Shown here: piece by piece, positions 1 through 19,057 of the stretch
Layout of the letters: every line of letters starts with the position of its first letter
How positions within the stretch are numbered: position 1 is the first letter of the stretch
Source: a virus
Length of the DNA: 22,542 nt
IMG/VR virus record: IMGVR_UViG_3300037086_000471
Coordinates: 1-22,542 of that record
Strand: one strand, 5' to 3'
The notes under the pieces: generated by a model
Database searches by the model: none
The model's input: only the letters and a program-made list of their open reading frames with translations
Told to the model about the DNA's origin: nothing
Program-made: the position numbers and the translations under genes

Positions 1-3000
1 CTAGAGCCGGATCGTCACCGTCAAGTCGCGTCCTGGAGTCCCCGAACCACCCTGCGGGACGGAGAGGGCGTCCAGGTTGATTTGGGAGCCGACAGCCAAA
101 GGTGGCAGGCCCAGACCCGAAACGACATTGGAGACTACGGCGCCCGCCGGAATCAGGAGCCGGCAGTACTCGTCGCCATTCTGTCGCAGCCGGAGCTCGA
201 TAGGCGCTCCTTGCGGCGCTTCTCGCACTACTGCCGAGATGTCGCGGGCGCAATGCGTTTCTTCGATGACCAGCGGCGGCGCGACGTCGGAGTGAATCGC
301 CAGGTAGCCTTCCACCTGAATGGAGAGCTGCCCGCCGGCGAGCGTCCGCAATCCGAAATCCGTACTGGCTGTGAGGCAAATCTGCGACGGCTCGCTCGTG
401 CCTCTTGAGTTCGTCGCGCTCAACTCTGCGCTGGCGATCCGCACATCGGGAAGGAAGACCGCGTAGCTGTAATTGCCGCTGGCCGGGCTTCCAAAGAAGT
501 CTCTCGAGAAAGGCAGCACGTACACCTTACTCTTGAGGTGCTCGACCGGCGTGCCCTGGTTGTGCTCTGTGGCCGTACTGCTGTGTACCCCTCGATCCAC
601 GCTATACCGCAGACCCCCGTCAAGCACCTCGGTCACACGCAGGACTTCCCCCTCTAACTGAATCAGGGACCCCACAACCGCGCTACCCACGGCCGATAGC
701 GACACACTGGACCCATCGGCATGCAAGACCTGACTCAGGTGTACTGGTGAAACCCCGTCAAGTTCGTCCCAGTAGTTGAGTGCCAATGTCCCGGCCGCGA
801 TCGTGCGTGTGTTTGTTAGTTCCTCGAATCCAACGCCGACCACCTCGACCGTGCCTTGCCCTGTCGGATGCAGTCCGAAGACCGGCTTCCCAGGGGGCGC
901 GGTATCCATGGGCGTCCCGCCCCCGCCACCGATCAGCCACCGTGTAAGTGGCGATAGTTCGTAAGCGCATTCTTTGTCGCAGACGTTCGCCGCCCGTCCG
1001 GAAACGTGGATCGTAGTCCCCGGCCGGCTCGGAACCTCGAAGCCCACCGGACTCGTGCTCCCCAGCGCGCCGAAATGCCATCCCGCCTCCGCAACAACGA
1101 AGTTACTTGAGCCGTCCGGTTCCGTCCCCCAGGCCGGCGCAACGGTCAGAACGGTGGCGGTGTTGGCGGCCGCTGGCCTTTCTTGGCCCTTGCCTGCGCC
1201 CTGGGTGATCCGAACCACCATCCCGCGGTACTCATTGACCGGCATTTCGAGGGTCTCGTTGCCGATCGTGCTTACGGAGTGAATCGTGGCCGGCGCTTCG
1301 GGTTGCAGCTCGAGCCGCCAGTAGAAGTTCGCATGATCGTAGTCCTCGTCGGGCGGCGCCTCCAACTGGTTCGGCAACCCTGTGTCGACGAAGAACGCTG
1401 CTACGGGCTGCGCTGTCGCAACCCGAAACAGGCGCAGCGGGTCCCTGCCTCGATAGACATGGAACCCCGTCGTACCTGGGGCGAAGCTCAGCCCGTCAAT
1501 CCGAACACTGTTGGCCCCGGTTGAGAAAGGAATCGTCGCTCGCACCAAAAAGGAGAGTGGGCTCTCCGTTCCGTCGGCGCCGAGCGCGCTGACCGCGTAG
1601 TAATAAGTCCTGTCTCCGCCCAGTGTGCCGCCGGAATCCGAAACAACCGGGGACAAGTTCAGGAGAGGGATTCCCGAGTTGCCCGTCGCCGGCCGGCGCG
1701 GAACCACGAATCCCGCCTTGAGCCACGTGTTGGTCTGACCACCCGCGTCCTCATCCGACGATTCCTGAATCTCGAACTGAGGCTCGCCCTCTTCGTCCAG
1801 GACGTTCCCCAACAGCGGCCGCGGCAGTCCCAGCTCGAAGTTCGGCTGCCTCCTCGTTCCTGGGTTGCTGTCGCCGGCCAAATCGGAGTACCACTCGTCG
1901 TTGTGGATTTGCGCCGTAATCACGACTGTCCGGTAATTCACCCCGGGAGAGACCGTCGTCACGCGGAACGGCTGCCGCAGGAGTCCTTCCTTCAGATAGG
2001 TCAGCGTGATCGGGTCCCCGGGCTTGAGCCCGACTCCTCGCACGCTAGTCTCGAACTGTACGTAAGTATTGCCCCGAACCGATTTGTTGAGCTGAAGCTG
2101 GATGATCCTGGCCGCTTGGTGAAAATTCGGCATGCCTAGCGCACTGAGCGAGACACTGATTTCCTGGCCCGTGCGCAAGACGTCGTCGATGTCCACCAGC
2201 GACAGACTGTCTTGCTGGTATTCGTTGAAGGCGTCCTGAAACTCGACGCTGAAACGATTGGGCGTGTCCGCGGCACTCCGGCCCCAGAACCGTATGGCTG
2301 GCTCCCCATTCTCCTTGCGTAAGATGCCGCCTGTGCCCTCCGTGCCATCCCCGAATTCATAGCTCGGCCAGCCGCCATCCAGGACCTCCAGACTATTGCT
2401 CCCTTCCGGCTTCGACGGCTGCTGTAGTGCAAGCGTGTCCTCGACCCGAAGCTGCAATCGTCCATCGATGCCATGGGCCAGATACAGACGGCTGCCGGTT
2501 CTGACTCCGCGAATTACGTCGGCGACACTGCGTCTCTTTCGCAACACCAGATTGCATTGGAAGCGCGGGATGACCGTCGCGTTACCGTGCAAGTCCAGCG
2601 CGTCGATCGGAGCGGCGCAGTACGCTGCCGCTTCGGCAAAGCTGGCCAGATCGATCTCCTCCGCAGCCCAACCGCTCCGTCTGAGGATGTCCAGAATCAC
2701 CCAAACGGGGTTGTTGTCGAACGTGTCGCCAAGATAGGCGGCGTCTGTTCCGAATCGGGAAACCTTCAGACCCTCGATCAGCACTTGGACCCGCGGCAAC
2801 GCTGCTCCGTCGTTGAGCCGGTTTGGAACCACCAGCGACAGGAACGCCATACTCCCATACGGGTCCCCTAGCGGATTCCCAGCCCCGTCGGTGAAATCCG
2901 GATTGAACTCGCCGGTCCGGGTTCCACTGTTCGCCACGGAATACCAGCCTGTAGCCGTCATGTCGACGCCCGTCTGCGCAAGGGGAACCTCAACGCTGTT

Positions 3001-3930
3001 GACCAGGACCTTCAGCACTCCCTGGATCTCCCCCATCCCCAGGAGGATCTCAACGTGAGTCAGATTGCCGTCGTTCCGCGCAAAAACGATCGGCGGCGCG
3101 TACCATGCCGTGCCGTAGACGATCGGTACAAAATCGTTGTACCGGCCTTCGTTCTCGACCACCGGCGATGCGTGGAAGCTCTTCTCGCCGTAGGTTCGCA
3201 CCTGGATAGTCGGAGGGACGAACTCCACTCCGCCAAAACGCCGCGTGGCGTTTTCCGCGGCATCCTTGTCGAACATCCCTCTTTGCTGGCATTGCGGGCG
3301 CGTGTAGTCGCACGAACTGTAGGCCGTGCCTCCGTTCGCGTTCCCCGCCCCGCCTGGCACCTCCGGAGAGTATCCGCAGCGGTAGAAGGGCGAGTATTTC
3401 CCCCGTGTACCTCCGTCGACGGCTTCGGCCCGCTGTTCGGGGCTGGCAGGGAAGTTCCAGGGACATCGCCGCTGGATGCGAACCTCCGGAACGAGCAGCC
3501 GCTGCAGGTTCATGCGATTGGAGACAGTCAGGCGGAGGGTCGATTCGGTGATCTCGTCCGGCGAGTTTGCCACCCCCCGAAACACCACCACGCTTTCGGA
3601 GGCCGGCGCTCCATTCTTCAGGTCGAAGAACAAAAAACGCACAGTCGTCTTGGCGCCCTTCCAGCCGGTGCTGCGCTCGATCTGTGAGCAATAGGAGTCC
3701 GCGTTCGCCAGCGTGACCGTGAGCTTGGAGAGGCTGTCAATCCCCTCCTCCGAGTCGGCGCGCATATCGAACAGATTATGGCCGAGCACCCGCGCCTCAT
3801 AGACTTGACCCTCAACCTCGACCCGGTGGGTGCACCAGTGCGCCACCGTGCCCGAACTCAATTCGAATGTGAACAGAAACAGCGGCGTCTGTGTCACGTT
3901 CTGTTCTTTCAAGTCGAAGATGGTGGACAT
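1..3930 (-). CDS. Phage tail hub / tail tip protein (fused DUF2163-like and gpJ/megatron-like)
   Basis: Large 1309-aa structural protein that should sit at the distal end of the tail, closing the tube and carrying receptor-contact domains. Residues 1-240 look like the DUF2163 hub family. They include a cysteine set at C156, C185, C207 and C214 followed by RRFGG, the arrangement known from lambda gpL and gene transfer agent hubs that bind a 4Fe-4S cluster. Residues about 265-690 resemble the baseplate-hub part of gpJ/megatron proteins (DNNPVWVILDILRRSGW near 405; a GLKPGDPITL segment near 634). Residues about 757-860 look like a fibronectin type III fold (TYYYAVSALGADGTESP, then TTGFHVYRG). 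The remainder is beta-rich and unassigned. The stop codon is at bases 3-1, so the gene is complete. It starts at an ATG 100 bases after the upstream tail gene. Hub and megatron are separate genes in gene transfer agents, so this is a fusion. No NlpC/P60 peptidase domain was recognised. The family call is firm; the domain borders are approximate. Confidence 0.85.
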   Translation of the reverse strand: MSTIFDLKEQNVTQTPLFLFTFELSSGTVAHWCTHRVEVEGQVYEARVLGHNLFDMRADSEEGIDSLSKLTVTLANADSYCSQIERSTGWKGAKTTVRFLFFDLKNGAPASESVVVFRGVANSPDEITESTLRLTVSNRMNLQRLLVPEVRIQRRCPWNFPASPEQRAEAVDGGTRGKYSPFYRCGYSPEVPGGAGNANGGTAYSSCDYTRPQCQQRGMFDKDAAENATRRFGGVEFVPPTIQVRTYGEKSFHASPVVENEGRYNDFVPIVYGTAWYAPPIVFARNDGNLTHVEILLGMGEIQGVLKVLVNSVEVPLAQTGVDMTATGWYSVANSGTRTGEFNPDFTDGAGNPLGDPYGSMAFLSLVVPNRLNDGAALPRVQVLIEGLKVSRFGTDAAYLGDTFDNNPVWVILDILRRSGWAAEEIDLASFAEAAAYCAAPIDALDLHGNATVIPRFQCNLVLRKRRSVADVIRGVRTGSRLYLAHGIDGRLQLRVEDTLALQQPSKPEGSNSLEVLDGGWPSYEFGDGTEGTGGILRKENGEPAIRFWGRSAADTPNRFSVEFQDAFNEYQQDSLSLVDIDDVLRTGQEISVSLSALGMPNFHQAARIIQLQLNKSVRGNTYVQFETSVRGVGLKPGDPITLTYLKEGLLRQPFRVTTVSPGVNYRTVVITAQIHNDEWYSDLAGDSNPGTRRQPNFELGLPRPLLGNVLDEEGEPQFEIQESSDEDAGGQTNTWLKAGFVVPRRPATGNSGIPLLNLSPVVSDSGGTLGGDRTYYYAVSALGADGTESPLSFLVRATIPFSTGANSVRIDGLSFAPGTTGFHVYRGRDPLRLFRVATAQPVAAFFVDTGLPNQLEAPPDEDYDHANFYWRLELQPEAPATIHSVSTIGNETLEMPVNEYRGMVVRITQGAGKGQERPAAANTATVLTVAPAWGTEPDGSSNFVVAEAGWHFGALGSTSPVGFEVPSRPGTTIHVSGRAANVCDKECAYELSPLTRWLIGGGGGTPMDTAPPGKPVFGLHPTGQGTVEVVGVGFEELTNTRTIAAGTLALNYWDELDGVSPVHLSQVLHADGSSVSLSAVGSAVVGSLIQLEGEVLRVTEVLDGGLRYSVDRGVHSSTATEHNQGTPVEHLKSKVYVLPFSRDFFGSPASGNYSYAVFLPDVRIASAELSATNSRGTSEPSQICLTASTDFGLRTLAGGQLSIQVEGYLAIHSDVAPPLVIEETHCARDISAVVREAPQGAPIELRLRQNGDEYCRLLIPAGAVVSNVVSGLGLPPLAVGSQINLDALSVPQGGSGTPGRDLTVTIRL

Positions 3931-3968
3931 GTTTCTCCTAGTGCTCTGACCGCGAGGAAACGTTCGTC

Positions 3969-4030
3969 AGATCCGAGCCCCGAACGTAAGAGAGGGGTTG
4001 CGAAAGGCACCCAACCACTCAGTCGGACCA
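3969..4030. repeat. Dispersed short hairpin repeat, copy 1
   Basis: The gap between two tail genes holds a unit with arms CCCC (3978-3981) and GGGG (3994-3997) around the 12-base loop gaacgtaagaga. The same loop with CCGC/GCGG arms recurs at 9339-9358 and 12452-12471, and a diverged copy lies at 12490-12509. Downstream the text cggaccactaacc also recurs at 12470. This is non-coding repeat DNA, not part of the phage module's usual gene spacing. Confidence 0.75.
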
Positions 4031-4828
4031 CTAACCGATTAGCGGCGCCACAATTCGCACCTTGCAGGAGTGCTGTTCCGGGCCGTCCGATGCGAGCGTC
4101 AGCACATCGTTATCGAAGCGCGCCTTCTCGTGGACGCCGCTTCGGGACGTCGTCTTTCGATATGCCGACGGCGCCAGTTGCGCCTCCACCTGCATCCCGT
4201 ACACTTCCACCGCGGATCCCGGACTCAGCCGGATGCCGAATGCCACGCTTTCTGCTGTGCCCTGACTCCTCCCCGCATGCGCCAGGCGCCGCCAGGCCGG
4301 ACCGACAGAATACGCCGCCGCTGCCTCGTTCCCGCCCGTGGATCGATATACGCCGAGGACTCCGGGACTCTGGCTTCTCACGTACAGGCTGAAGCAGTAC
4401 TGAAACCAACCCGGACCCTGTATCGTCTGCTGCAACGTCTGCGGTAGTACGCCGCCATTTGTGACCCTGCAAGCCTGCGTACCCCCCTCCGGATCGGCGA
4501 CGCCGCTCGCCAGATTCACAAACGGCTCCTTGGTCCACAGGGTCTGGCCGGGATCGCCGCTCCACGCCAGCAGGTTTTCCGTGGGATCGAGAAAAGTGAA
4601 CTCCCCCAGACAGCCTTCCGCCGCGCGGTGAAAAGCCGCCAGTTCGGCCCGCTCTTCAGTGGTCAGTGTCTGGAAAGTCATTTCCCATTCCAGCCGTGAC
4701 CAATTGGGGTCGGAAAGCTTGAGTAGGCGATCTTCGGCGCTAACGCTGGTGATTGTCCGGCAAATGCGGCGCTTCACCAGTGGGTACTGGGCCGTGGCCC
4801 CCGAAAGAAGCTGTGGAAAGTAGAGCAT
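4031..4828 (-). CDS. Distal tail protein, DUF2460-like, with C-terminal carbohydrate-binding-like domain
   Basis: 265-aa protein. Its first roughly 95 residues parallel the neighbouring 119-aa protein: both carry a QYPL/QYPA start, a W-E/R-L-E core, an acidic helix and then LGEFTFLDP / LGDFAFTDP. This segment resembles the DUF2460 distal-tail family that joins the tail tube to the hub. The remaining part is glycine- and serine-rich beta structure ending in VYGMQVEAQLAPSAYRKTTS, a pattern I associate with jelly-roll carbohydrate-binding domains of phage tails, so it may contact cell-surface glycans. The ATG at 4828 was preferred over an ATG 27 bases upstream because it follows the upstream stop codon (4832-4830) by one base, which fits translational coupling. 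The domain calls rest on resemblance only. Confidence 0.7.
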   Translation of the reverse strand: MLYFPQLLSGATAQYPLVKRRICRTITSVSAEDRLLKLSDPNWSRLEWEMTFQTLTTEERAELAAFHRAAEGCLGEFTFLDPTENLLAWSGDPGQTLWTKEPFVNLASGVADPEGGTQACRVTNGGVLPQTLQQTIQGPGWFQYCFSLYVRSQSPGVLGVYRSTGGNEAAAAYSVGPAWRRLAHAGRSQGTAESVAFGIRLSPGSAVEVYGMQVEAQLAPSAYRKTTSRSGVHEKARFDNDVLTLASDGPEQHSCKVRIVAPLIG

Positions 4829-4829
4829 G

Positions 4830-5189
4830 TCAGACCCTGTTCTCCCGCACCACAACGGCTAACTGGCCCCTCATCAGGTCCTCGAACGTCATCGTGATGC
4901 TGTCCTCCTCCAGGCTGCAGCTTGGGTAGGTCGTCCCATCCCACGGGTCCGTGAACGCGAAATCGCCGAGTCGTCCCAATTGCGACTGGAAGAAATCCTC
5001 CAAAGTCGCCACCTCGGTCTCGTCCAGAAGCTCCAGCCGGATCATCCACTTCCTCAGCGGCTGCGCGTACTCGCGGAATCGCTGTTCGCTGCCGTCCACA
5101 AAGCGCAGCACACACGTCGAGTGGCTGCTGCTCTGGGAGGCCGGGTACTGAAGCACGGCCCCGGTCTTAAGGAGAGGGAAGGCGCTCAT
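4830..5189 (-). CDS. Distal tail protein, DUF2460-like (short form)
   Basis: 119-aa protein between the tape-measure-like gene and its longer paralogue. It has a basic W-M-I-R-L-E-L strand, an acidic helix (LDETEVATLEDFFQSQLG) and an LGDFAFTDP motif, as in DUF2460/TIGR02217-type proteins that form the ring linking tail tube and hub in gene transfer agents and related siphoviruses. It starts one base after the stop of the upstream gene (TAG T ATG) and ends one base before the next start, so the three are tightly coupled. No catalytic residues are expected. The tandem arrangement with the longer related protein suggests duplication with later gain of a binding domain in the second copy. Confidence 0.7.
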   Translation of the reverse strand: MSAFPLLKTGAVLQYPASQSSSHSTCVLRFVDGSEQRFREYAQPLRKWMIRLELLDETEVATLEDFFQSQLGRLGDFAFTDPWDGTTYPSCSLEEDSITMTFEDLMRGQLAVVVRENRV

Positions 5190-5190
5190 A

Positions 5191-5832
5191 CTATAGCTCG
5201 CTCATCACGTCACCCAGGGAATGCGCGTTCAGAAGTGCCTCGCGCACAGCTCGGGCGATGTCGTCACTGTGGTCCAGGAAGGACCGGCTGTCCATAGCCT
5301 GTACCTGCACCGTCACGGACGGCGCGGTATTCTGCGTGCTCGGAGTCACGGCCCGCGGCAGTCCATCCTGTCCGTAATCCACGCCCGCGATCCCCTGCGA
5401 ACCGCCCGCCAGCAACGCGCCCTGGAACTGAATCGAAGGGGGCAGAGTATACGTCTCGAGGGGCGGCGGTTCGGGCTTGTCCTTCTTGAAGAGCCCGACC
5501 AGCGCGGAAACCAGCGGCACCACGCTCAAGGCGCCGCCCAGCGTATTTGCCGCCGTCTTCGCGATGTTGCCTGCGGCCGACGCCACGCCGCCCTGTGCCT
5601 GCGAAACCGTGTTCTGCGCCACCGCCTGGGTATTCTCCGCCACGGATTCCGCTTGCTGTTGAGTCAGTGGGCGGAGTTGCTCCAACTGCGTGGCAATCGT
5701 CGCGACGTTCTCTCCCAGTCCCGGTGTAACCGAAGGAACAGCCCATTGCGCGACTTCCGCCGCGGACGCTTCGGCGCTGCTTCCGCTGCCCGGCGGCAGG
5801 GCGTTCAGTATGGTTCTTTGCGCGTCAGTCAC
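5191..5832 (-). CDS. Short tape-measure-like tail protein
   Basis: 213-aa protein. It lies directly after the frameshifted tail chaperone and before the distal tail genes, the slot always taken by the tape measure protein. It has an Ala/Gln-rich helical N-terminal half (residues 40-95), a hydrophobic segment at about 99-115 ending in FKK, and a C-terminus (VQAMDSRSFLDHSDDIARAV onward) of the kind seen at the ends of tape measure proteins. At about 1.5 angstrom per residue it could span only around 30 nm, against an 853-aa tape measure in lambda. The Rhodobacter gene transfer agent has one of similar small size. The GTG start at 5832 has an AAGGAG ribosome site, and its reading frame overlaps the upstream stop by eight bases. 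It could instead be a remnant, but no frame disruption is visible. Confidence 0.7.
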   Translation of the reverse strand: MTDAQRTILNALPPGSGSSAEASAAEVAQWAVPSVTPGLGENVATIATQLEQLRPLTQQQAESVAENTQAVAQNTVSQAQGGVASAAGNIAKTAANTLGGALSVVPLVSALVGLFKKDKPEPPPLETYTLPPSIQFQGALLAGGSQGIAGVDYGQDGLPRAVTPSTQNTAPSVTVQVQAMDSRSFLDHSDDIARAVREALLNAHSLGDVMSEL

Positions 5833-6519
5833 GTGCGTCTCTCCTTTCCGCTGCCAACTCCCTCTCCAGCACGGTGAACGCGTCCACCTGGCGCGCGCTC
5901 ATGGTCCGGTAGTCCATCCCTCCGGCGAGCTTCCATGCGTAAAACTCCTCGATCCAGGAGAGGCTCTCCGGAGTGATCGAGGATTTCGGACAGCTCGTCG
6001 CCACAACGTGCTTCCGCGCCCAGATCGCCCGCTCGCACCCATCTTCGAATCCGGCAAGAAACCTGCAACGTCGCCTCTTCTCCAGGCCGGCTGCCCTGCA
6101 TGTCTCGCACTTCCACCCGGCCTGATCCGAGAACTGGAACTGGAAGGCGAGGATTAGTTTTTTCGTTCGTCTGCGCTCAGGCCGCACTCGGCCTTGATCG
6201 CGGAGATGATCTCGCGACAAAGTTCTTCGGGCCCCGCCGCAACCAGAGTCTCCGGCGTTGCTGCCTGCCCGTCGATCTCCAGACCCGCGATCTCCGCCAC
6301 CCCCCACAGAAGGTAGACCTGATTTATCTCGGTAGCGAGCAAAGCGGCTTCCATGCTCTCCCTCGGATCTTCCCCGGACTCCAGAAACTCGACCCTCTGG
6401 AGCAACTCCCTCAGCCGGCGCGTCAACCCCAGCCGCCGCTCCACCGACATCCGCCGCAGCTTGAAGGTGACCCCCGGATTGCTCGTCGACGCGATCGTCC
6501 TGTGGCTCTCGTAGTTCAT
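5825..6519 (-). CDS. Tail assembly chaperone, frameshifted long product (gpGT-like)
   Basis: Reading 6519 down to 6157, slipping back one base and continuing from 6157 to the TGA at 5827-5825 gives a protein of about 231 aa. The -1 frame is open well upstream of the slip site and runs 110 codons past it, with no good start codon of its own near the junction, so the second half is best explained as an extension of the first. In lambda the T extension recruits tail tube protein. The extension here contains a CETC pair followed by further cysteines (a CRF nine residues later), which could bind metal. The next gene starts inside the last codons (GTG at 5832). Confidence is high because order, overlap, frame and heptamer all agree. 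Confidence 0.82.
6154..6519 (-). CDS. Tail assembly chaperone, short product (gpG-like)
   Basis: 121-aa, largely helical protein encoded four bases after the tail tube gene. Its position between tube and tape measure, its small size and its termination right at a slippery heptamer identify it as the short form of the tail assembly chaperone. In lambda this protein (gpG) coats the tape measure during tail assembly and is absent from the finished particle. The first residues (HRTIASTSNPGVTFKLRRMS) resemble other chaperones of this class that start with a predicted beta segment. It ends DERKN followed by TAA (6156-6154), with A AAA AAC immediately before the stop. The functional call rests on context and the frameshift signal more than on sequence similarity. 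Confidence 0.8.
   Translation of the reverse strand: MNYESHRTIASTSNPGVTFKLRRMSVERRLGLTRRLRELLQRVEFLESGEDPRESMEAALLATEINQVYLLWGVAEIAGLEIDGQAATPETLVAAGPEELCREIISAIKAECGLSADERKN
6157..6163 (-). promoter_or_regulatory. Programmed -1 ribosomal frameshift site
   Basis: On the minus strand the heptamer A AAA AAC is read in frame 0 as CGA AAA AAC TAA. Slippage of both tRNAs by one base gives AAA AAA CTA and opens the downstream frame. The stop codon directly after the heptamer would favour pausing. An 8-bp perfect stem (6124-6117 with 6090-6083, 26-base loop) lies 32 bases downstream. That is farther than the usual spacing, so it may or may not act as the stimulator. Confidence 0.8.
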
Positions 6520-6523
6520 GTCA

Positions 6524-7696
6524 TTACCCGAAGGCGACCACCATCTCGTCGTCCACCGTTCCCTGCGCCCTGCACCCCCGGAACTGCCATTGCATGCGCG
6601 TCTGGCTGTCGTCGAATTCGGGCGCCTCCGGAACGACGCTCTTCATGTATGCGCCGAACAGTTGCCCGGCCTCCTGTCCCAACTGGAACATCACCTCGAT
6701 TGGGGACCGCTGCCGCGCCGCCTGGTACAAAGACACTGTCGCTGCGTCCTCCCGGCCGTAAAGGTCGAAGTCCACCGACACATTGCGCGTGCCCGCCGCC
6801 ATGCAGCATGGCGTGATGGCCCCGAACTCCCGCGCCCTAAGGTCCAGGTTGTTATCCAGCGTGATGTTGGCATCGGTGATCGTGAAGAAGCGGTCTGAGA
6901 TCGTCCCCAACCAGGCTTGTCCCAGATGACCGGGGATGATCGAGTAGTCGAACACCGCCTCCGCGGGCTCGCCTGGGAAACTCGACAATCCCCCCTGTCC
7001 CCCTGTGAAACTGCTGTTGTCCAACAGATCCTTGGCCGTGCCCGTGAAGCGAAACTCGTGGTAGTCGCCGTTGATCCGCAACTGCATCTTTTCGATGCCC
7101 GCTCCGCACGCGATCCGCTGCACCGCCTCTGCCGGCGACCAGTAGTCGAAGATGCTGGCGCTCCTGAGCCGGTTCGCCGGCATGTACGTGACTGTCCGTC
7201 CGATCGGCGCCCCTGCGCCAGGCGCGGAGCTGAACGGGGCGTTCAACAGCACGGTCCGGTCGTCCGCGATGGCTGACACGAACCGGATCTCTCCGTCAAA
7301 GGTCACCGCCTGCCCCGCGGCCAGCCCGTGCGGTGCGGAGAAGACCAGCGTCCTGTCTCCGCTACCCGCCCCGGCCACACCGCCGGCAAACACCAACGCC
7401 TCGCCTCCTAATGCAGCCTGAAACAGCGATCCATACCCCGGCTGCTCCGCCCCATCCGTCCAGCCGGTCATGTAGCTGCTCAGATCGAAGGTTGTCTGCT
7501 TGCGAAGATTTGGCGCTAACCCCTGAAACGTGCGCGTCCCCGTCTTGTCTTTGCGCTGCGGTTTTTCGACGTCCTGCTTCAGCGCCAGCTTCACGCCGGG
7601 AAACCGGTTGCTCGCGGTGATTGCAGGCACCGTTCCATAGGCGGTCTCGACGGCCGCGTAGAATCGGTTGTTGTTTGACGATATGTAACAGGCCAT
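6524..7696 (-). CDS. Phage tail tube protein (major tail protein)
   Basis: 390-aa protein with the N-terminal signature of tail tube proteins (NNNRFYAAVETAYGTVP: an eta-type strand and early description of a tube start) and alternating beta strands throughout. Such proteins form stacked hexameric rings making the tail channel. Location after the terminator-like gene and four bases before the chaperone supports the call. Residues about 112-172 (SAPHGLAAGQAVTFDG onward to YMPANRL) look like an inserted small beta domain, which would explain why it is longer than the usual 140-250 residues. The start at 7696 has a GAGGA ribosome site about nine bases upstream. A tail sheath is excluded by length and by lack of any sheath-like gene. 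Confidence 0.75.
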   Translation of the reverse strand: MACYISSNNNRFYAAVETAYGTVPAITASNRFPGVKLALKQDVEKPQRKDKTGTRTFQGLAPNLRKQTTFDLSSYMTGWTDGAEQPGYGSLFQAALGGEALVFAGGVAGAGSGDRTLVFSAPHGLAAGQAVTFDGEIRFVSAIADDRTVLLNAPFSSAPGAGAPIGRTVTYMPANRLRSASIFDYWSPAEAVQRIACGAGIEKMQLRINGDYHEFRFTGTAKDLLDNSSFTGGQGGLSSFPGEPAEAVFDYSIIPGHLGQAWLGTISDRFFTITDANITLDNNLDLRAREFGAITPCCMAAGTRNVSVDFDLYGREDAATVSLYQAARQRSPIEVMFQLGQEAGQLFGAYMKSVVPEAPEFDDSQTRMQWQFRGCRAQGTVDDEMVVAFG

Positions 7697-7716
7697 AAGA
7701 TTCGTTCCTCACCCCA

Positions 7717-8214
7717 TCAGCCGATGCTTACGTCCACTTCGAAGGCAACCTTCGCACTCTGGATGAAGTTCTTGCCGCCGTGCTTCATGCCGCCGAAAGT
7801 CACCTCGTAACCTCCCGTGTAGAAGATGCCTCCTCCCCAGTCCCCCCGGTGCGAGTCCAGCACATCCGTAACGGCTTCCGCGTGCAGCTCCAATTGCTGG
7901 CCGAGCTCTTCCAGGCGTTCGTGGGTCACACGCACGTCCACCACCAGACGGGCCTTGCCCGAAAACGTCCGGAACTTCTCCCGAAGCTGGTTCGTGAACT
8001 TCTCACAGAACACGTAGTAGACCGGGTACTTGACCCCCGCCGTCCGCTCGGCCAGTTCCGGCGCCACGTTTTGCGGCAAGATTTGCTGGGGCGCGATCTC
8101 TCCGAGCTTCACGTTCTCTCGGCTGGAGATCGCCGCGAGGCTGTTGGAGAGTCCCATCGGACCGTTCAGTATGGCCGCCAGCCGGCCTGAGCTATTGTTG
8201 GCAACTTGAGCCAC
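7717..8214 (-). CDS. Tail terminator / tail completion-like protein
   Basis: 165-aa protein starting at a GTG (8214-8212) that lies five bases after the stop of the preceding gene, with AAAGGGGG as ribosome site overlapping that stop. The open frame extends further upstream, but that part overlaps the preceding gene and has no good start. The sequence shows paired beta strands and a helix (VKYPVYYVFCEKF; ARLVVDVRVTHERLEELGQQ; YEVTFGGMKHGGKNFIQSAKVAFEVDVSIG), typical of small head-tail or tail-terminator proteins that cap the tail tube at the neck. It sits directly before the tail tube gene, where the terminator is found in HK97-like phages and gene transfer agents. Family identification is by position and fold impression. 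Confidence 0.6.
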   Translation of the reverse strand: MAQVANNSSGRLAAILNGPMGLSNSLAAISSRENVKLGEIAPQQILPQNVAPELAERTAGVKYPVYYVFCEKFTNQLREKFRTFSGKARLVVDVRVTHERLEELGQQLELHAEAVTDVLDSHRGDWGGGIFYTGGYEVTFGGMKHGGKNFIQSAKVAFEVDVSIG

Positions 8215-8219
8215 GGCGG

Positions 8220-8957
8220 TTACCCCCTTTGCAACACGCGGTTGATTCGTACGTAGGATGAAGGCTGCTGACCGTTGCCAGCCTTCCTCCCCGCGGCCAG
8301 GCCTGAAAGCGGTAGCCTCCAGGTTGCGCCGATCTCGATTGGCGGATCGTTCTGCAGCCGGCTGTCCTCGATCGACAGGCCGGCGTATACGTTCCAGCCG
8401 CTCGCATTCGCGGGTGCCTCCGCGGCCTCTACCTCCGGCACCGTCCCCTGCGCTGCCGCCAGCACGGCCGGCTCGCTGGGACATCCTTCCTCGCCCTTCG
8501 CGCTCACCCATGCCACGCGGGTCCAGTACATCGCCGCCGCGCCCTGGCCGCTGACCGCGCGCACCGTCGGCGCTGCCGCCTTTGGCACCGCTTCCTCGAT
8601 CAACCCGACCCCCGTCTCGAACAGGCTCCTGCTGGCCCAGTTGGCCATCCGCTGGTATTCCCGCCACTTGCCGAGGTAGCGATCGTTGAGGTGGCTGTTG
8701 TATGCGTCCCTGTACGTCAGAGCCAGACTCTGAAAGATGTGCCACAAGTGGAGAGGCTGGGTGACGACGACACGCCCGAGCTGTTCGGGTTGCTCCCGGA
8801 AGAAATGCGCCGTCAATTCGACCTCCAGTTCCTGATGTGCCAAAACCAGTTTTTGGGACAAGTCGATGCCCTCGATCGAGGCGACATCGTACAATCCGCT
8901 CTCGTAGCCCCTCAGCTCCTCAAGAGTCGAGGTGGTCCCGTCCGTGAATAGTGCCAT
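8220..8957 (-). CDS. Head-tail adaptor-like protein with beta-sandwich C-terminus
   Basis: 245-aa protein, not confidently assigned. Residues 1-115 are helical (DLSQKLVLAHQELEVELTA; YRDAYNSHLNDRYLGKWREY), consistent with a head-tail connector/adaptor ring protein, and the gene stands after the capsid gene, where adaptors occur. Residues about 125-240 change to a beta-rich fibronectin-like segment (YWTRVAWVSAKGEEGCPSEP, then SGWNVYAG) that resembles residues 770-830 of the tail hub protein of this same module. It starts three bases after the stop of the upstream 109-aa gene and is followed by the terminator-like gene with a five-base gap. An adaptor carrying an added Ig-like decoration domain is the best reading. 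Confidence 0.55.
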   Translation of the reverse strand: MALFTDGTTSTLEELRGYESGLYDVASIEGIDLSQKLVLAHQELEVELTAHFFREQPEQLGRVVVTQPLHLWHIFQSLALTYRDAYNSHLNDRYLGKWREYQRMANWASRSLFETGVGLIEEAVPKAAAPTVRAVSGQGAAAMYWTRVAWVSAKGEEGCPSEPAVLAAAQGTVPEVEAAEAPANASGWNVYAGLSIEDSRLQNDPPIEIGATWRLPLSGLAAGRKAGNGQQPSSYVRINRVLQRG

Positions 8958-8960
8958 CTC

Positions 8961-9290
8961 TTACTGCCCCTTCGTCCCCTTGGACCCGCCGCCCGGCTTC
9001 TTAGCCTCAGGCTCGCTCAGAACCATGACTTGTATCCGCCGCGCCAGAGCCGCCTGTTCTGCCGCGCGGCAATCCTCCTGGCACTTCTCTCGAAACTCCT
9101 GAGCCTCGGCCTCGGTCGCCAATCGTGCGCTTCCGTCGGCGATCATCTTCGCCGCGATGTCGCGCGGCGCCTCTGTAGCCACGCCCGCCCGACCGCCATC
9201 CGGCGTCGCCAGGCTGACCAACACCACGCACGCATCCGTGATGCTCGCCTCGATTTGTCGCAGCTTCTGGTAATACACTTTCAGATCCAT
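8961..9290 (-). CDS. Small phage protein of unknown function (head-tail region)
   Basis: 109-aa protein that I do not recognise. It starts at ATG 9290-9288 behind a strong GAGGGGAA ribosome site; an upstream extension of the frame is unlikely because it would run through repeat DNA. The N-terminal half begins with a helical KVYYQKLRQIEASI and continues to a segment DAPRDIAAKMIADG-like (here APRDIAAKMIADGSARLATE). The middle is rich in Glu, Ala and Cys (EFREKCQEDCRAAEQAALAR), probably helical, and the tail is Gly/Lys-rich (KKPGGGSKGTKGQ). It is separated from the capsid gene by 142 bases of hairpins and leads directly into the adaptor-like gene. A head-decoration, connector or small scaffold-type role is possible. 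Confidence 0.6.
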   Translation of the reverse strand: MDLKVYYQKLRQIEASITDACVVLVSLATPDGGRAGVATEAPRDIAAKMIADGSARLATEAEAQEFREKCQEDCRAAEQAALARRIQVMVLSEPEAKKPGGGSKGTKGQ

Positions 9291-9308
9291 TTCCCCTCCT
9301 CTGTGGTA

Positions 9309-9415
9309 GGACAGGCGCTTCCGCCTGTCCGATCCGAGCCGCGAACGTAAGAGAGCGGACTTTGCCATCGCCGGCCCAGCCCGCTCCAAGGACCCCGGCC
9401 CCCCAGCCGGGGTCC
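9309..9415. repeat. Hairpin cluster between capsid gene and next phage gene
   Basis: Three palindromes fill the gap. A perfect 10-bp stem (9390-9399 with 9406-9415, 6-base loop) lies 18 bases after the capsid stop. The dispersed 12-base-loop repeat lies at 9339-9358. A perfect 9-bp stem GGACAGGCG/CGCCTGTCC with a 4-base loop lies at 9309-9330. None is followed by a T-run on the minus strand, so they are not classical terminators. They could act in mRNA processing or protect the capsid message, or be host repeats only. Confidence 0.7.
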
Positions 9416-9432
9416 CCAACCCGCTCTCCGTG

Positions 9433-10344
9433 CTAGCTGTTCACCTGCACACCGAACGAGTTGCGCAAAACGCCTGCGCCGTACAGCACGTCCACCGTGA
9501 ACTGCTGGGCCAAGGTGTTCGGCTGGTAGCTCATCACCACGCGCATGCCGAAGTTGCCTATCTCGGCGTATTCGGCGATGGCGCCCGTCCCCGGCAGAGG
9601 CTGCGGCAGCCGGCGGACCACCAATCCCAACGCGCTCCTGGCGAACGCCAGATTGTGCGTGGTTGTCGGGCCGCTCCCCGTCTTCTTCACAAACTGCGAC
9701 CGCAGGACGTAGAAGTCCTTGATCTTGCCGACCGACCCTTCGACGATGGCCCGAAGACCCGCGTCCCCCGCCGTCTGATACTCGCTGAAGCGCACGATCT
9801 GCCGCAGTTGAGAGTAAGTGGCGGAATCCACCACCAGATACTTCGGCTCGCTCGCCGGCACCTTCGCCTCGAACATCTCCGTCTCGGCTAGGTCCACCGT
9901 CGATTCTGTGATCGGCGACCCGGCGCTGCCCACCGCCGTGTTCGCGTTGAACCCGGCATACAGCCCCAACAGGTCGCTCTCGATCTTCTCCGCCAAAGCC
10001 ACCAGGGCGGGCTGCATGTATAGCCTGAGCAGATCCGGCACCGCCAGGACCTTGGTGATGTCCGGAATCTGGAAGGTGGCTTCTGCGTGCGTGTTGAGCA
10101 CGATCTGAGCGTTTCCCAGACTGACACTCTGCGTTTGCACCGTATCGCCTTCGGCCAGGTTGTGAGCAACCAGGACGGGCGGGATCGGCACGTTGATTGT
10201 GTCGCCGGCTTGGCCCAGCGCCGGTTCGAAGTCGCGGTTGACGAGGTTCCCCATGACAAGGTTACCCATCAGGGCGGGCAAGGCATCGACCGCCACCAAC
10301 TTGACAATCGCGTTAGCCACATTGGCTGATGTTATTGCTGCCAT
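9433..10344 (-). CDS. Major capsid protein (P22 coat-like / HK97 fold)
   Basis: 303-aa protein placed after the scaffold-like gene. The N-terminus (ITSANVANAIVKLVAVDALP), the stretch GDTINVPIPP, and a long helix preceding EAKVPASEPKYLVVDSATYS are features I associate with coat proteins of the P22 gp5 group, which have the HK97 fold. The C-terminal GMRVVMSYQPNTLAQQFTVD is the usual terminal beta segment. It should form the shell together with the scaffold. No prohead protease gene is seen, in keeping with P22-like assembly where the scaffold is released without cleavage. Start ATG 10344 has an AGGAG ribosome site eight bases upstream. The capsid role is secure; the subfamily is less so. Confidence 0.85.
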   Translation of the reverse strand: MAAITSANVANAIVKLVAVDALPALMGNLVMGNLVNRDFEPALGQAGDTINVPIPPVLVAHNLAEGDTVQTQSVSLGNAQIVLNTHAEATFQIPDITKVLAVPDLLRLYMQPALVALAEKIESDLLGLYAGFNANTAVGSAGSPITESTVDLAETEMFEAKVPASEPKYLVVDSATYSQLRQIVRFSEYQTAGDAGLRAIVEGSVGKIKDFYVLRSQFVKKTGSGPTTTHNLAFARSALGLVVRRLPQPLPGTGAIAEYAEIGNFGMRVVMSYQPNTLAQQFTVDVLYGAGVLRNSFGVQVNS

Positions 10345-10414
10345 TTAGTTTCTCCTATCCAATTTGATTCCGCCTCTGAGGGCGTTCTGTCGTCTTCCGC
10401 AGCCACTCTGCGCC

Positions 10415-11005
10415 TTACTGGCCGCCCAGTGCCTGCGAAGCAATCCGTGCGATCTCCTGGCGGACCCGCTCCAACTCTTCCGGGCTCATTCCAGGCTTGA
10501 TCTTGTCCAGATCCACCGAATGGCTCGCCGGCGGCGCGCCCCGCGTTCCGCTCATCGCTCCCGACCCGCCCAGGTTTCGCGCCGGAAGGAACTCCGGATT
10601 CTCAGTCACGAAATGGGTCAGGTAGTCGCGCAGGCTCACGGCCCCGTTCTCGCTGGTCCCCACCAGCCGCCCGTCTTCCGTCCGCTGAACGTCGTCCTTG
10701 ACGGCCTTGAATGCCAGGTCCACTTTCGCAACCCCCAGCCGCTGCAGTTCCGCCCGGATCGTCGAGTTCCGCTCCGCCTCTTCGGCCATCTTGCGGCTCC
10801 GCGAGTTCTCCTGGACCAGTTCGTTCACCCGCCGCTCCAGTTGTTCCCTGCGCTTCCGCTCTTCCACAAGTTCGTTCCGATAGGCGGGCTCCGCTTTGGC
10901 GACTTCCTTCCGCGCGTACTCCTCGATCACCTCGCGGATGACGCCGCGGATGTCCTGCCCCCCTTCGGACGGCGTCCCCGCGCCTTGTTTGGGTTCTTGC
11001 TCCAT
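10415..11005 (-). CDS. Scaffold-like coiled-coil protein
   Basis: 196-aa protein starting at ATG 11005-11003 behind an AAGGAGG ribosome site; the open frame continues upstream inside the portal gene but without such a site. Residues about 18-85 are strongly charged and helical (EEYARKEVAKAEPAYRNELV, then EERKRREQLERRVNELVQEN), a likely coiled coil. The C-terminal part has KIKPGMSPEELERVRQEIAR, a typical helix-turn end of scaffolds that touches the coat. It lies between portal and capsid, where scaffold genes are found. It would be an internal assembly protein, lost from mature heads. No protease motif was seen. The call rests on composition and position. Confidence 0.7.
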   Translation of the reverse strand: MEQEPKQGAGTPSEGGQDIRGVIREVIEEYARKEVAKAEPAYRNELVEERKRREQLERRVNELVQENSRSRKMAEEAERNSTIRAELQRLGVAKVDLAFKAVKDDVQRTEDGRLVGTSENGAVSLRDYLTHFVTENPEFLPARNLGGSGAMSGTRGAPPASHSVDLDKIKPGMSPEELERVRQEIARIASQALGGQ

Positions 11006-11022
11006 CCTTCGCCTCCTTTGTC

Positions 11023-12414
11023 CTATGACTGCTCGCACCACTGGTTGATCTCGCTTACGATCTGGTCCTTGGTCTCCTGCCGCACGTCGCACAGATACTT
11101 GAGCGCGAGCTTCCTCAAGATCTCTTTGTGCAGCGTCTTCGATCCCACCCCCAACCCCAGCAGCTTGATGGCGTCCGCCAGTTCGCCGCTGAAGTCGCCG
11201 ATGTCGAACTCGTCCAGCCCCGATACGTCGATCGCCAGCCCGTCCTCCCGGGCCGCTTCGATCGATTTCAGTACACGCTTGAGCGTGTCCTTCACCGCAT
11301 CGCCGTACGACCGCAGCACCTCTTGTGTGATCGTGAAATCTCTTTGTTTGCTCAGCCCCGACTGTTGCGAGCCGTCCGACAGCCCGCCCCCCGCTTGCGT
11401 CATCAGGTAGCAGACCCTGTAGATCTCGTCCTTCAGCCGCGTCAAGTTGTCCGCCGCGATCTGGTAGACGTTGCCCTGCGGCTCCGTCCAGCCAAACTTG
11501 TCGTCGGGCCCTAGTTGTATGTAGTAGGACTCTCCCACAATCTGGTTCCATTCCCGGTCCGAGTAAATCACCGGCGACGCGAACAACCCCATCGTCAGCG
11601 CCCAGCTCAGCGCGTTGGACTTGTTGAAGTGCTCCAGTTGCAGCGACGCCGCTTTGTTGGCCAGCCACAATCCCTCGCTCGTCTGAAACTGGAATACCGG
11701 AACCCGCTTCAGCTTCGCCAGGCCGTGGCGTCCGTGGTCGGTCAGTTGTGGCTTCCCGGACTCCTTCTTCCCCTCAAGCCGCCTGTACGTCTTGAATTCT
11801 TCCTTGTCGTAGAACGTCCACTTCGTCTCACGGACCCATCCGTCGTCATTGGGCGACCCCTGCCGCAGACTGGACGTCCGCAGCACCACCCACTCGAAGT
11901 TCTGTTTGTCGTCGTAACTCCAGTTGATGACGTCCTGTGCACCGTAATCCACCAGGTAGGCTCTTGAGCATCCGGCGGCCTCCTCCTGAGCCCGGTTCAG
12001 CACCGGGTCCTTGGTACGGGGGAAGTCCACCAGCACGTACGACGTCCCGCACACCATCGTCTCCACCAGTACCTTCCGGAAGAAGTCGGATATGCAGGTG
12101 CCCTTCATGTCGCAGTCTTCGACGAACTCGCTGTAGAACGCCTTCCCGGCTACGTTGGGCCCCTGAAACGTCAGAACCGGTTCGCGCCGGAACAGCGTGG
12201 CCGCGTACCAGTCCAAGATGGACCCCAGGTAGTTCTCGTAGAAGACCCGCTGCAGCCGCTCCGAGTACACGTCCAGCGGCTCCCGGTGCCTCCGAACGAG
12301 ATACTCGCTCGCGTTCGCCTGAAACTCGTCGCCCCCTGCGTACAACTCCTTGTACTTTTTCCAGGTGGCCTTCTTCTGCGTGTACTCCGGGTGTTCCCTG
12401 TCGATTTCTAGCAC
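11023..12414 (-). CDS. Phage portal protein
   Basis: 463-aa protein, within the usual size range of portals (the dodecameric ring at the head vertex through which DNA is packed). The start is a GTG at 12414-12412 with AAGGAGG six bases upstream. The frame is open for another 217 codons upstream, but that part overlaps the terminase gene and repeat DNA, so it is rejected. Sequence signs are an N-terminal helical region, YLGSILDWYAATLFRREPVL, the strand pair TSYVLVDFPRTKDP, and the stem-type segment near DNLTRLKDEIYRVCYLMTQA. These recall the DUF4055 type of portal. It follows terminase and precedes scaffold and capsid. The 17-base spacing to the scaffold start suggests co-transcription. Confidence 0.82.
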   Translation of the reverse strand: MLEIDREHPEYTQKKATWKKYKELYAGGDEFQANASEYLVRRHREPLDVYSERLQRVFYENYLGSILDWYAATLFRREPVLTFQGPNVAGKAFYSEFVEDCDMKGTCISDFFRKVLVETMVCGTSYVLVDFPRTKDPVLNRAQEEAAGCSRAYLVDYGAQDVINWSYDDKQNFEWVVLRTSSLRQGSPNDDGWVRETKWTFYDKEEFKTYRRLEGKKESGKPQLTDHGRHGLAKLKRVPVFQFQTSEGLWLANKAASLQLEHFNKSNALSWALTMGLFASPVIYSDREWNQIVGESYYIQLGPDDKFGWTEPQGNVYQIAADNLTRLKDEIYRVCYLMTQAGGGLSDGSQQSGLSKQRDFTITQEVLRSYGDAVKDTLKRVLKSIEAAREDGLAIDVSGLDEFDIGDFSGELADAIKLLGLGVGSKTLHKEILRKLALKYLCDVRQETKDQIVSEINQWCEQS

Positions 12415-12446
12415 TGTCTCCTCCTTGCCGCCTTCCGAACACGTTT

Positions 12447-12510
12447 CAGAGCCGCGAACGTAAGAGAGCGGTCCACTAACCAGTCGGAACCGCGACCGTG
12501 AGGGAGCGGC
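12447..12510. repeat. Dispersed short hairpin repeat, copies 3 and 4
   Basis: The gap between terminase and portal holds two units in tandem. CCGC/GCGG arms at 12452-12455 and 12468-12471 enclose gaacgtaagaga. CCGC/GCGG arms at 12490-12493 and 12506-12509 enclose gaccgtgaggga. The same unit is found in two other gaps of the phage block. Confidence 0.75.
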
Positions 12511-12518
12511 CTCTCCCC

Positions 12519-13826
12519 TCACACCAGCAGCCGCTCCCCGCGCTCCCCTGCCCGTCCCATTGGCCTGCATTCCTGCCACACCAAATACCCCAGCGCGTCG
12601 GATAGGTGCGTCCGCCGCGGGTCGCGGTCTTTTTCGATTACCGAACTGCCGGGTTTGTAGCTCACCTGCTCCAGGTCCATCACCAGCTCCCGGCATCGTG
12701 GGTGGATGAACAGCCGGCTCTTGTTCCCCGCCGATCGCAGCATCGCGTTCACTACGCTCACCCGTTCCCTCACTTCCGGGTTCGCACTCGGGACGCGGTA
12801 GCCGAGGCACTTCATGTTGCTCTTCGAGAGCGCCTCGCGCATCATCCCGTAGTCGCTTGATCCGGTCGTCTGTCGTCTCGATCCGGAAGCGTCTCCGTAG
12901 ATCGCCACCCCGGCCTGATGGCGCCCGTACCGGTCCAAAAACTGCTCGCAAACCTGCGGCGTGCTCAACCGGCTCAGCACCATCTCGTCCAGAACGTGAA
13001 CCACGCCATCCCGGACCTGCGCGATTACCGAGCACATCGGGTCCACATTGAAGTCCAGCGCCCACCGCAGCGGCAGTGTCGCATCCAGGTTCATTTCCAC
13101 CAAGTTCTTGGTGCGGTCGAAGGCGTGGTAGACCTGCCCCTCGCTCACGGTTAGATACTTCCCGAGCACTTCTTGCTCGAAGAACCTGCCGTCGTAACTC
13201 CGCTTCAGCCGCTCGTAATAATCCGGCACTTTATCGAGCAGGTACCGGTTCTCGTATGGCGCGGCGAGGGTCATTTCGTAGCCCTCTACCAGGTCTTTCA
13301 CGAACCGCCGGTAGACCCAGTCGAAGCCCTTCGGAGTCCACACCGCGAAGCCGCACAACCGCTTCGCCCGCGGATCCCGAAGCCGCCCTTCCAACCGTAG
13401 CCACGCTTCCTCCGCCGTGTACGTCAATTCGTCCAGCCCGAACCACGCCAGATTCGTTCCCCGCAGCCGTTCGTAGTCGTCCAGGGGCCGGAAGATGATG
13501 CGGCTCCTGGTGTCCGTCATGGTCAGTACGTTCTCCGCTTTGTGATACTCGTGCGGAATGCGGCTCCTCCCCAGGATTTCGAACAAAGTGATCTGCGTCG
13601 CATCGCGCAGCATGGGGTACGTCGGAGCTCCCAGCAGCCCCGCTCTGCCCGGATTCAGGTAGGTCAGCCGGATCGCCTCATGACAAAGCGCCTGGCTCTT
13701 GCCTGACCCTACCGGACCCGAGAAACCCTTGAATCTCTGCGTGGACCGATGGAACCTCTCCTGAGAAGGCAGCGGACAGTACTCTATGTCTCTGTAACAG
13801 ATTCCTTCTCGTTTGGTTCTACCCAC
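12519..13826 (-). CDS. terL: Terminase large subunit
   Basis: 435-aa DNA-packaging motor. The N-terminal ATPase shows Walker A GPVGSGKS (residues 37-44) and a Walker B/catalytic pair in LAWFGLDEL (D132, E133). The C-terminal nuclease of the RNase H fold shows the expected acidic triad at D258 (WALDFNVDP), D312 (YGDASGS) and D410 (HLSDALGY). It docks on the portal, cuts concatemeric or host DNA and pumps it into the prohead. All catalytic residues are present, so it is probably active. The start is a GTG at 13826 whose frame overlaps the preceding small gene by 43 bases; AAGGAG lies 11 bases upstream. The first residue is therefore somewhat uncertain, but the Walker A motif lies so close that little can be missing. 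Confidence 0.92.
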   Translation of the reverse strand: MGRTKREGICYRDIEYCPLPSQERFHRSTQRFKGFSGPVGSGKSQALCHEAIRLTYLNPGRAGLLGAPTYPMLRDATQITLFEILGRSRIPHEYHKAENVLTMTDTRSRIIFRPLDDYERLRGTNLAWFGLDELTYTAEEAWLRLEGRLRDPRAKRLCGFAVWTPKGFDWVYRRFVKDLVEGYEMTLAAPYENRYLLDKVPDYYERLKRSYDGRFFEQEVLGKYLTVSEGQVYHAFDRTKNLVEMNLDATLPLRWALDFNVDPMCSVIAQVRDGVVHVLDEMVLSRLSTPQVCEQFLDRYGRHQAGVAIYGDASGSRRQTTGSSDYGMMREALSKSNMKCLGYRVPSANPEVRERVSVVNAMLRSAGNKSRLFIHPRCRELVMDLEQVSYKPGSSVIEKDRDPRRTHLSDALGYLVWQECRPMGRAGERGERLLV

Positions 13827-14053
13827 GTCACTTTAATCTCCTTGGGTTCCTCTGCATCCAGCTCCTTGCGAAGCTGCTTCAATCGGATATACTCACTTAC
13901 GGTCGGCTTGACTCCATCCGTTCCGAGCGAATCTTCAAACTTCTTGATCAGAGTCTCGATCCCGCCCTCCTTCGCTGGCTGAAGCGGCTTGTTCTTCCCG
14001 TCTTTGCGGGTTGGGCCCTTCTTGGGCCTCTGTTTTTTCGCGGGGTTGCTCAT
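13784..14053 (-). CDS. Small basic phage protein, possible small terminase subunit
   Basis: 89-aa protein directly upstream of and overlapping terL. It has a lysine-rich, probably disordered N-terminus (KKQRPKKGPTRKDGKNK) followed by a helical region (IETLIKKFEDSLGTDGVKPT; VSEYIRLKQLRKELDAEEPK) and a short acidic end. The slot is that of terS, which recognises DNA for packaging, and a basic tail followed by helices would suit it. But the protein is shorter than most TerS proteins and no helix-turn-helix is obvious. The ATG at 14053 has GGAGG eight bases upstream. It could alternatively be a regulatory or accessory protein. Confidence 0.55.
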   Translation of the reverse strand: MSNPAKKQRPKKGPTRKDGKNKPLQPAKEGGIETLIKKFEDSLGTDGVKPTVSEYIRLKQLRKELDAEEPKEIKVTWVEPNEKESVTET

Positions 14054-14950: not shown

Positions 14951-15199
14951 ATGCCTGACAAACAGCACGCGCATCAGTTGCTTGACCAACTCGGCGCCGC
15001 CCAGTTCGACGCCGTTGTCAAACTGATCGAAGTGATGGTCCGCGAGGACGGCGAGGAACTGACCGAGGAAGACCGCGGTGCCGTCGCCGCTTCGCGTGAC
15101 TATTTTCGGCTGAACCCCAAGGGCGGCGTCCCCTTCGAGCAGGTGGTCGCCGAGTGCGGCTTCACGATGGACCAGATCCGCGACTCCCAGGGCGAGTAA
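14951..15199 (+). CDS. Antitoxin of a RelE/ParE-type toxin-antitoxin pair
   Basis: 82-aa acidic protein in the place and size of an antitoxin. It has a helical N-terminal part (AHQLLDQLGAAQFDAVVKLI), an EELTEEDRGAVAASRDYF segment, and GGVPFEQVVAECGFTMDQIR near the end, a pattern I associate with small antitoxins partnered by RelE-like toxins. It would bind and neutralise the toxin and repress its own operon. The ATG at 14951 follows AAGGGA by six to seven bases, and a TACAAT -10-like box lies at 14922-14927 without a clear -35. The toxin starts nine bases after its stop. No DNA-binding fold can be assigned with certainty. Confidence 0.7.
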   Translation: MPDKQHAHQLLDQLGAAQFDAVVKLIEVMVREDGEELTEEDRGAVAASRDYFRLNPKGGVPFEQVVAECGFTMDQIRDSQGE

Positions 15200-15207
15200 T
15201 CGTTCAC

Positions 15208-15456
15208 GTGAAGAAAATCCGCTTTCACCCGAACGTTCCGGAAGAAGTCCGTGCGATCGGGCAGCGCGCCGCTCTGAACATCTTGGCGGCCATTCATCGG
15301 TACGCGGTAACCGGCGCCGGCAGGGTCAAGCCGCTGAGCGGGGAGTTCGAAGGGCTGCTCCGGCTTCGCGTCGGCAACCACCGCGTGTTCTTCGACGAGA
15401 CCGAGGATACCATCACCGTCCACCGCGTCCGCGATCGCAGAGAGGCGTACCGCTGA
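15208..15456 (+). CDS. RelE/ParE superfamily toxin
   Basis: 82-aa basic protein with the RelE-family plan: a starting strand KKIRFHPNVPEEV, a helix (RAIGQRAALNILAAIHRY), then VKPLSGEFEGLLRLRVGNHR and VFFDETEDTITVHRVRDRRE ending in AYR. LRVGNHRVFF followed by a second strand and a basic R-D-R-R end is the hallmark of this family, which mostly cuts ribosome-bound mRNA (RelE) or blocks gyrase (ParE). The GTG start at 15208 was chosen because it avoids a 46-base overlap that the ATG at 15154 would cause and places the first strand at the N-terminus. Which target it has cannot be told from sequence. Confidence 0.8.
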   Translation: MKKIRFHPNVPEEVRAIGQRAALNILAAIHRYAVTGAGRVKPLSGEFEGLLRLRVGNHRVFFDETEDTITVHRVRDRREAYR

Positions 15457-15506
15457 AGGGGCGGCAGGGAGAACCGCTGGCTGCGTAACGTGGGCTTCAA
15501 CCTGCC

Positions 15507-15528: not shown

Positions 15529-15535
15529 CTGAAAT

Positions 15536-19045: not shown

Positions 19046-19057
19046 CCCAAGCGTGGC

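Follow-up and report, generated by a model that had tools for sequence, protein, structure and literature searches.

Gene transfer agents (GTAs) look like dead prophages, and for this reason their frequency outside the Alphaproteobacteria is an open question (PMC11841831). The DNA considered here poses that question in a concrete form: is a compact block of head and tail genes, deposited in a virus catalogue, an ordinary prophage or a particle locus that a bacterial lineage has domesticated? The window (the whole stretch analyzed, 22,542 nt) is the IMG/VR virus record IMGVR_UViG_3300037086_000471, and the block occupies its positions 1–14053. An earlier note on this DNA had described a conserved particle resembling a GTA or a domesticated phage, and the comparative evidence presented below (synteny, dN/dS, distribution, tree and chromosomal site) argues for that description.

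Extent of the Locus

Both edges of the window fall exactly on stop codons (on the left that of the tail hub gene, as had been remarked), because the virus record was trimmed; judging from these edges, it is a provirus prediction cut at gene boundaries. The right-hand part, positions 15154–22542, encodes a RelE-like toxin, in a region bracketed by a 140-bp direct repeat (14658 and 15536; 90%), an HsdM fragment on the minus strand (15550–16419), and a complete-looking type I restriction–modification set (hsdR, 16646–19045; hsdM, 19808–21391; hsdS, 21394–22542). We considered these toxin and restriction–modification genes as a possible part of the module and rejected them: they had zero homologues in the ~230 relative loci searched and are therefore local host genes, outside the module.

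An Acido-Lenti-1 RNA (RF01687, 41.9 bits) was found at 19354–19397, within a 102-bp tandem repeat adjoining the restriction–modification genes. This RNA, together with the nearest genome matches, which are MAGs of Bryobacteraceae/Bryobacterales (coat identity 89%), places the host in the Acidobacteriota.

Gene Content of the Module

The module comprises 15 ORFs on the minus strand, i.e., 14 proteins plus one frameshift extension, and is ~97% coding. The run of consecutive minus-strand genes was correctly recognized in the earlier note, which had counted only thirteen of them. The gaps total only ~470 bp of 14,053 bp, in line with the remark that almost no space is spare, and within positions 1–14053 there is no integrase, lysis, replication or regulatory gene (nor a gap large enough for one), as had also been stated.

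A TerS-like small protein (g1, 89 aa, 13784–14053), lacking Pfam or PHROG matches, overlaps the start of the terminase large subunit (TerL; g2, 435 aa, 12519–13826; phrog_2, 3e-38; PF17289 and PF03237, Terminase_6N/6C). The TerL catalytic residues (Walker A 37–44, D132/E133, D258, D312 and D410), already described as intact, are invariant in 22 relatives. The portal (g3, 463 aa, 11023–12414; phrog_145, 1.4e-51) is followed by a scaffold-like gene (g4, 196 aa, 10415–11005), so called for its place between portal and coat, its charged helical composition and weak matches to unknown PHROGs; it is kept in 148 of 150 IMG/VR loci. The major capsid protein is of the P22-coat type (g5, 303 aa, 9433–10344; phrog_283, 2e-43; PF11651, 1e-15), with a mean column identity of 90% across 20 relatives; its AlphaFold model has a pLDDT of 36. 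Three genes syntenic in relatives come next: a small head or connector protein (g6, 109 aa, 8961–9290) and a connector or tail terminator (g8, 165 aa, 7717–8214), both assigned from position, with a head-completion protein between them (g7, 245 aa, 8220–8957; weak match to phrog_8040, head closure, E = 0.013).

The tail genes start with the tube protein (g9, 390 aa, 6524–7696; phrog_290, 1.4e-11; PF18906, E = 0.0016) and a tail assembly chaperone in two frames, the upstream one syntenic in relatives (g10, 121 aa, 6154–6519) and the downstream one in the –1 frame (g11, 5825–6223; conserved at ~50% identity), giving a g10–g11 fusion. A short tape measure (g12, 213 aa, 5191–5832), recognized by weak matches to tape-measure PHROGs and by position, has a conserved length (family median 215 aa, 141 loci). 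Two DUF2460-type proteins, the first of distal-tail type (g13, 119 aa, 4830–5189; PF09343, 4.7e-12) and the second longer (g14, 265 aa, 4031–4828; PF09343, E = 0.0003), precede the tail hub (g15, 1309 aa, 1–3930; Phage-tail_3 PF13550, 1e-6; phrog_31, central tail fibre J, 1.6e-21). The gene order first proposed thus stands, by profile or slip site, for terminase, portal, capsid, tube, chaperone, DUF2460 protein and hub, while the DUF2163-like character given to the hub corresponds to a weak match (PF09931, E = 0.019). For the scaffold, connectors and tape measure, the names derive mainly from position and weak matches, and PDB sequence searches returned weak matches only, to hub, distal-tail, capsid and terminase chains.

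The frameshift claimed for the chaperone is real, with a canonical –1 slip site: the heptamer A AAA AAC lies directly before the g10 stop (6157–6163, minus strand), is present in frame in 62 of 65 relatives, and g11 is in the –1 frame in 64 of the 65.

Of 68 loci, 65 encode a small protein of 62–160 aa ahead of TerL. In this TerS-like family the N-terminus is basic and variable, a hairpin of two helices is predicted, and an IxVxWVEP motif is conserved at the C-terminus; the window's g1 has a disordered N-terminus, ends in IKVTWVEP, and has dN/dS values of 0.22–0.32. Its AF2 model (pLDDT 75) contains helices 27–42 and 52–67 only. No helix-turn-helix or other DNA-binding domain was detected in the Pfam/PHROG families or in the AF2 model, and the protein is identified as TerS by position and size. 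Known GTA TerS proteins have no DNA-binding domain, a possible reason for their non-specific packaging (PMC11841831), and the TerS-like protein described here would, by analogy, fit such packaging, although this likeness is suggestive only.

The gaps of the module hold a 20-bp hairpin, CCGCGAACGTAAGAGAGCGG, at 3978–3997, 9339–9358, 12452–12471 and 12490–12509 (the last with 3 mismatches), where 0 copies would be expected by chance. The window has no copy beyond the module, and the hairpin is absent from 529 other fetched loci, close relatives included. Hence the earlier note was right about repeats in the gaps; their being of host type, i.e., a host-wide repeat, could not be confirmed.

Conservation and Selection

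Searches of IMG/VR with TerL and with the coat protein each yielded at least ~450–600 relatives. The matches listed comprise ~290 distinct records, none of which exceeds 23.8 kb. The same 15 genes occur in the same order in all long IMG/VR loci and in the best 80 GTDB loci, so that the synteny check proposed at the outset returned a perfect gene order across the order Bryobacterales. All but two of these 80 loci come under Acidobacteria-type names; the other two bear the titles Nevskia soli and Acidimicrobiia, probably misnomers, and the genome of locus L204 groups inside the order on rpoB. The distance from TerL to hub is 13.63 kb (5–95%: 13.36–13.90 kb, n = 63 loci).

The reading frames had been described as free of decay, and 930 of 939 scorable genes (~99%) are indeed full length; g11 was excluded from this count because the frameshift overlap makes it score artificially short. 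Comparison with close relatives gave dN/dS values of ~0.06–0.41 for every module gene; by this measure, also suggested beforehand, the module is under purifying selection.

Flanks of the Module

Could these loci simply belong to temperate phages, ordinary or defective, that form a widespread family with Bryobacterales as hosts? All genes are of phage type, predictors call the locus a provirus, and, in the available text of a 2025 paper on Tunturi viruses, such loci figure as Bryobacterales-specific "group (i)" proviruses with a shared gene order (PMC11924767). However, the genes are intact rather than decaying, genes for replication, regulation and lysis are missing, and no relative among the IMG/VR matches listed is longer than the size given above. 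The flanks also speak against this explanation. A tyrosine integrase within 30 kb was absent from 19 of 20 genomes (sole case, G208, among the matches listed), and lysis and regulator genes were identified neither in the module nor in its flanks.

The left flank deserves particular mention, since lysis or regulatory genes had been suspected there. Relatives have at that place either one tail gene or host genes, and no integrase, repressor or lysis module lies left of the hub. The tail gene, directly after the hub in 11 of 20 genomes, encodes a 770–990-aa protein whose TIM-barrel domain matches PF23845 (4.5e-12 in KBS 96); in the window it would fall left of position 1, outside the record. In KBS 96 the module is surrounded on both sides by host metabolic genes (symporter, permease and sugar-metabolism genes).

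Distribution and Descent in Bryobacterales

A patchy distribution had been named as a sign of a prophage. We found instead a near-universal presence in one bacterial order: among the 257 genomes of the order containing KBS 96, which is called Bryobacterales here after the titles of its genome records, 201 have the coat gene. At least 11 of the 56 coat-negative genomes have a near-complete or contig-cut TerL, implying that the coat was partly missed through fragmented assemblies. A sample of 396 genomes across the phylum gave no clear match outside the order, only two order members and one weak partial match (1e-8). In a deep clade of the order (G240–G257), 17 of 18 genomes have no trace of coat or TerL; this clade either branched off before the acquisition or lost the module early.

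The module is normally single-copy, with one copy in most genomes. Extra, more distant TerL homologues were seen in G182 (contig C62, locus L539), G187 and G181, and are possibly true prophages akin to the module ancestor. An apparent truncation of TerL in G149 proved to be a contig end.

For 29 genomes, we compared a tree of rpoB/rpoC with a tree of twelve concatenated module proteins, both built with FastTree. The two have 11 of 26 splits in common, compared with a mean of 0.2 and a maximum of 4 upon label shuffling. Most larger subclades agree, and conflicts occur within clades or at the base. On the other hand, the module tree does not recover 7 of 15 well-supported host splits, meaning that some exchange or tree error exists; this discordance is in keeping with infection by temperate phages. 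In a Mantel test the raw distances correlated weakly (r = 0.27, Spearman 0.05), probably from fast saturation, and tree splits took their place.

A common chromosomal site was also apparent. Twenty-three genomes spread over many clades have a host M24-peptidase gene 11–27 kb downstream of the coat gene, on the same strand in 22 of them; the gene itself is present in 242 of 257 genomes of the order. It is far from the module in KBS 96, the Paludibaculum-type G204, G147 and G012, so the shared site is not universal. Altogether, the check on vertical inheritance proposed in the earlier note points, through host tree and chromosomal site, to vertical descent with some discordance.

Three genomes carry scars of deletion at the orthologous site. 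Both flanks of the G093 module align to G106, where a deletion removed the module but spared the TerS gene and ~42 TerL residues; G102, from the same clade, has the downstream flank in common. In G181 and G182, a further deletion joins TerL, cut after residue 58, in frame to the downstream tail gene from its residue 170 on, and the M24 gene adjoins. These scars record the loss of an ancestral resident rather than the excision of a mobile element. The TerL(58)–TIM-barrel fusion is an 870-aa open frame (L536, 3223–5800, in G182; L537 in G181) and is possibly a newly made gene.

With order-wide single-copy presence, a common site and deletion scars, the temperate-phage explanation appears largely refuted, and we regard it as very improbable. 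The evidence shows the block to be a locus for packaging and particle formation that is intact, under constraint, normally single-copy, non-mobile and present across the order.

Comparison with Known Systems

The likeness to the Rhodobacter GTA first suggested holds for the organization of the tail region. RcGTA and its relatives (Rhodobacterales/Caulobacter) also consist of a ~14–15 kb head–tail cluster without phage life-cycle genes, vertically inherited across an order. They have DUF2460 and Phage-tail_3 tail-tip domains, a TIM-barrel tail protein, a TerS without DNA-binding domain, and a tape measure of ~216 aa (summed from helix and strand lengths; PMC7296036), compared with 213 aa here. 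The head does not conform: unlike RcGTA, the present module has a P22-type coat and a scaffold-like gene, and no HK97-type capsid protease between portal and coat, so it is not an RcGTA homologue in this part. It also differs in having no NlpC/P60-type peptidase gene in the cluster, and in belonging to a different bacterial phylum. The RcGTA tail-tip set comprises DUF2460, DUF2163, an NlpC/P60 peptidase and the megatron; of these domains the module showed DUF2460, besides Phage-tail_3, and the weak DUF2163 match already mentioned. No RcGTA chains were among the PDB sequence matches for the coat, TerL, hub and DUF2460 protein. The P22-type coat, the missing protease and the missing RcGTA chains together suggest an origin independent from RcGTA, at least for the head.

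The closest isolates were siphoviruses of the types of Cyanophage KBS-S-2A / S-H1 and Streptomyces phage Hiyaa (TerL 32%, coat 28%); unlike the module, these are full phages of 40–83 kb, and they are very distant from it.

PBSX-type defective prophages of Bacillus are domesticated particles that package host DNA and kill. The PBSX locus keeps lysis and regulatory genes, whereas the module has neither.

As for the "group (i)" proviruses, the members named in the accessible part of the paper are KBS 96, Ca. Solibacter usitatus and Paludibaculum fermentans (PMC11924767), and the KBS 96 record (IMGVR_UViG_2522125054_000002) carries this very locus (L450). As far as the description in that part of the paper goes, it proposes neither vertical inheritance, nor an ancestral site, nor a GTA reading. 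The literature searched contained no GTA proposal for Acidobacteria/Acidobacteriota, Bryobacter or Solibacter.

Possible Function of the Particle

We consider it likely that the block is a domesticated phage-particle locus of Bryobacterales, that it has descended vertically since an ancestor common to most of the order, and that it most probably works as a GTA. Under host control, a fraction of cells would express the module; a P22-type capsid would form around the scaffold, and TerL would pump in DNA as headfuls of host DNA. With no DNA-binding domain visible in the TerS-like protein, packaging would start anywhere. The 213-aa tape measure would set a short tail of siphovirus type, tipped by DUF2460 and hub proteins, to which the TIM-barrel protein would be added in about half of the genomes. 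Release would depend on host lysis functions encoded elsewhere, and the particles would then inject host DNA into related cells.

A particle of PBSX type would package random host DNA too and would kill competing strains without transferring genes. The same gene content is expected for such a particle, sequence alone cannot separate killing from delivery, and the 1309-aa hub and the TIM-barrel tail protein could act on cell surfaces. Conservation of the module, however, extends beyond a single species group to a whole order, and its operon holds no lysis or killing gene; neither point is decisive, but we think this alternative unlikely.

Domestication might also have led to some other use, e.g., a tail-based device or a cargo shell, in which packaging is no longer the selected function. 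The sequence cannot prove GTA identity, and G181 and G182 retain only a TerS/TerL stub fused to a tail protein. Yet strong constraint acts on the portal, coat and scaffold-like genes and on the two active sites of TerL, a pattern that only DNA packaging easily explains, and we attach little probability to such a use. Bryobacterales thus probably build DNA-carrying particles.

The fullest version of the GTA reading holds our support by a narrower margin than its core: we lean slightly towards an independently evolved GTA, with a P22-type capsid and a TerS devoid of DNA recognition, that became fixed in the ancestor of most of the order, would still be packaging and moving host DNA in soils worldwide, and would be the cellular locus behind hundreds of IMG/VR "viruses".

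Implications

For an abundant soil phylum that is hard to culture, comparative evidence by itself suffices to tell a domesticated particle from a prophage. Hundreds of IMG/VR records correspond to this cellular locus, so that counts of soil Acidobacteria viruses, and host-linked virus abundances, are likely inflated. The available text of the Tunturi paper also describes a second syntenic "provirus" family, group (ii), specific to Terriglobales (Koribacter, Granulicella) (PMC11924767), which may merit the same question of vertical inheritance. The module is present in at least three cultured strains: KBS 96, Paludibaculum fermentans and, according to that part of the paper, Ca. Solibacter usitatus (PMC11924767). 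If active, it would represent a second well-sampled GTA lineage of independent origin, as well as a sizeable contaminant of virus catalogues, and it would provide a major unrecognized route of gene exchange in soil.
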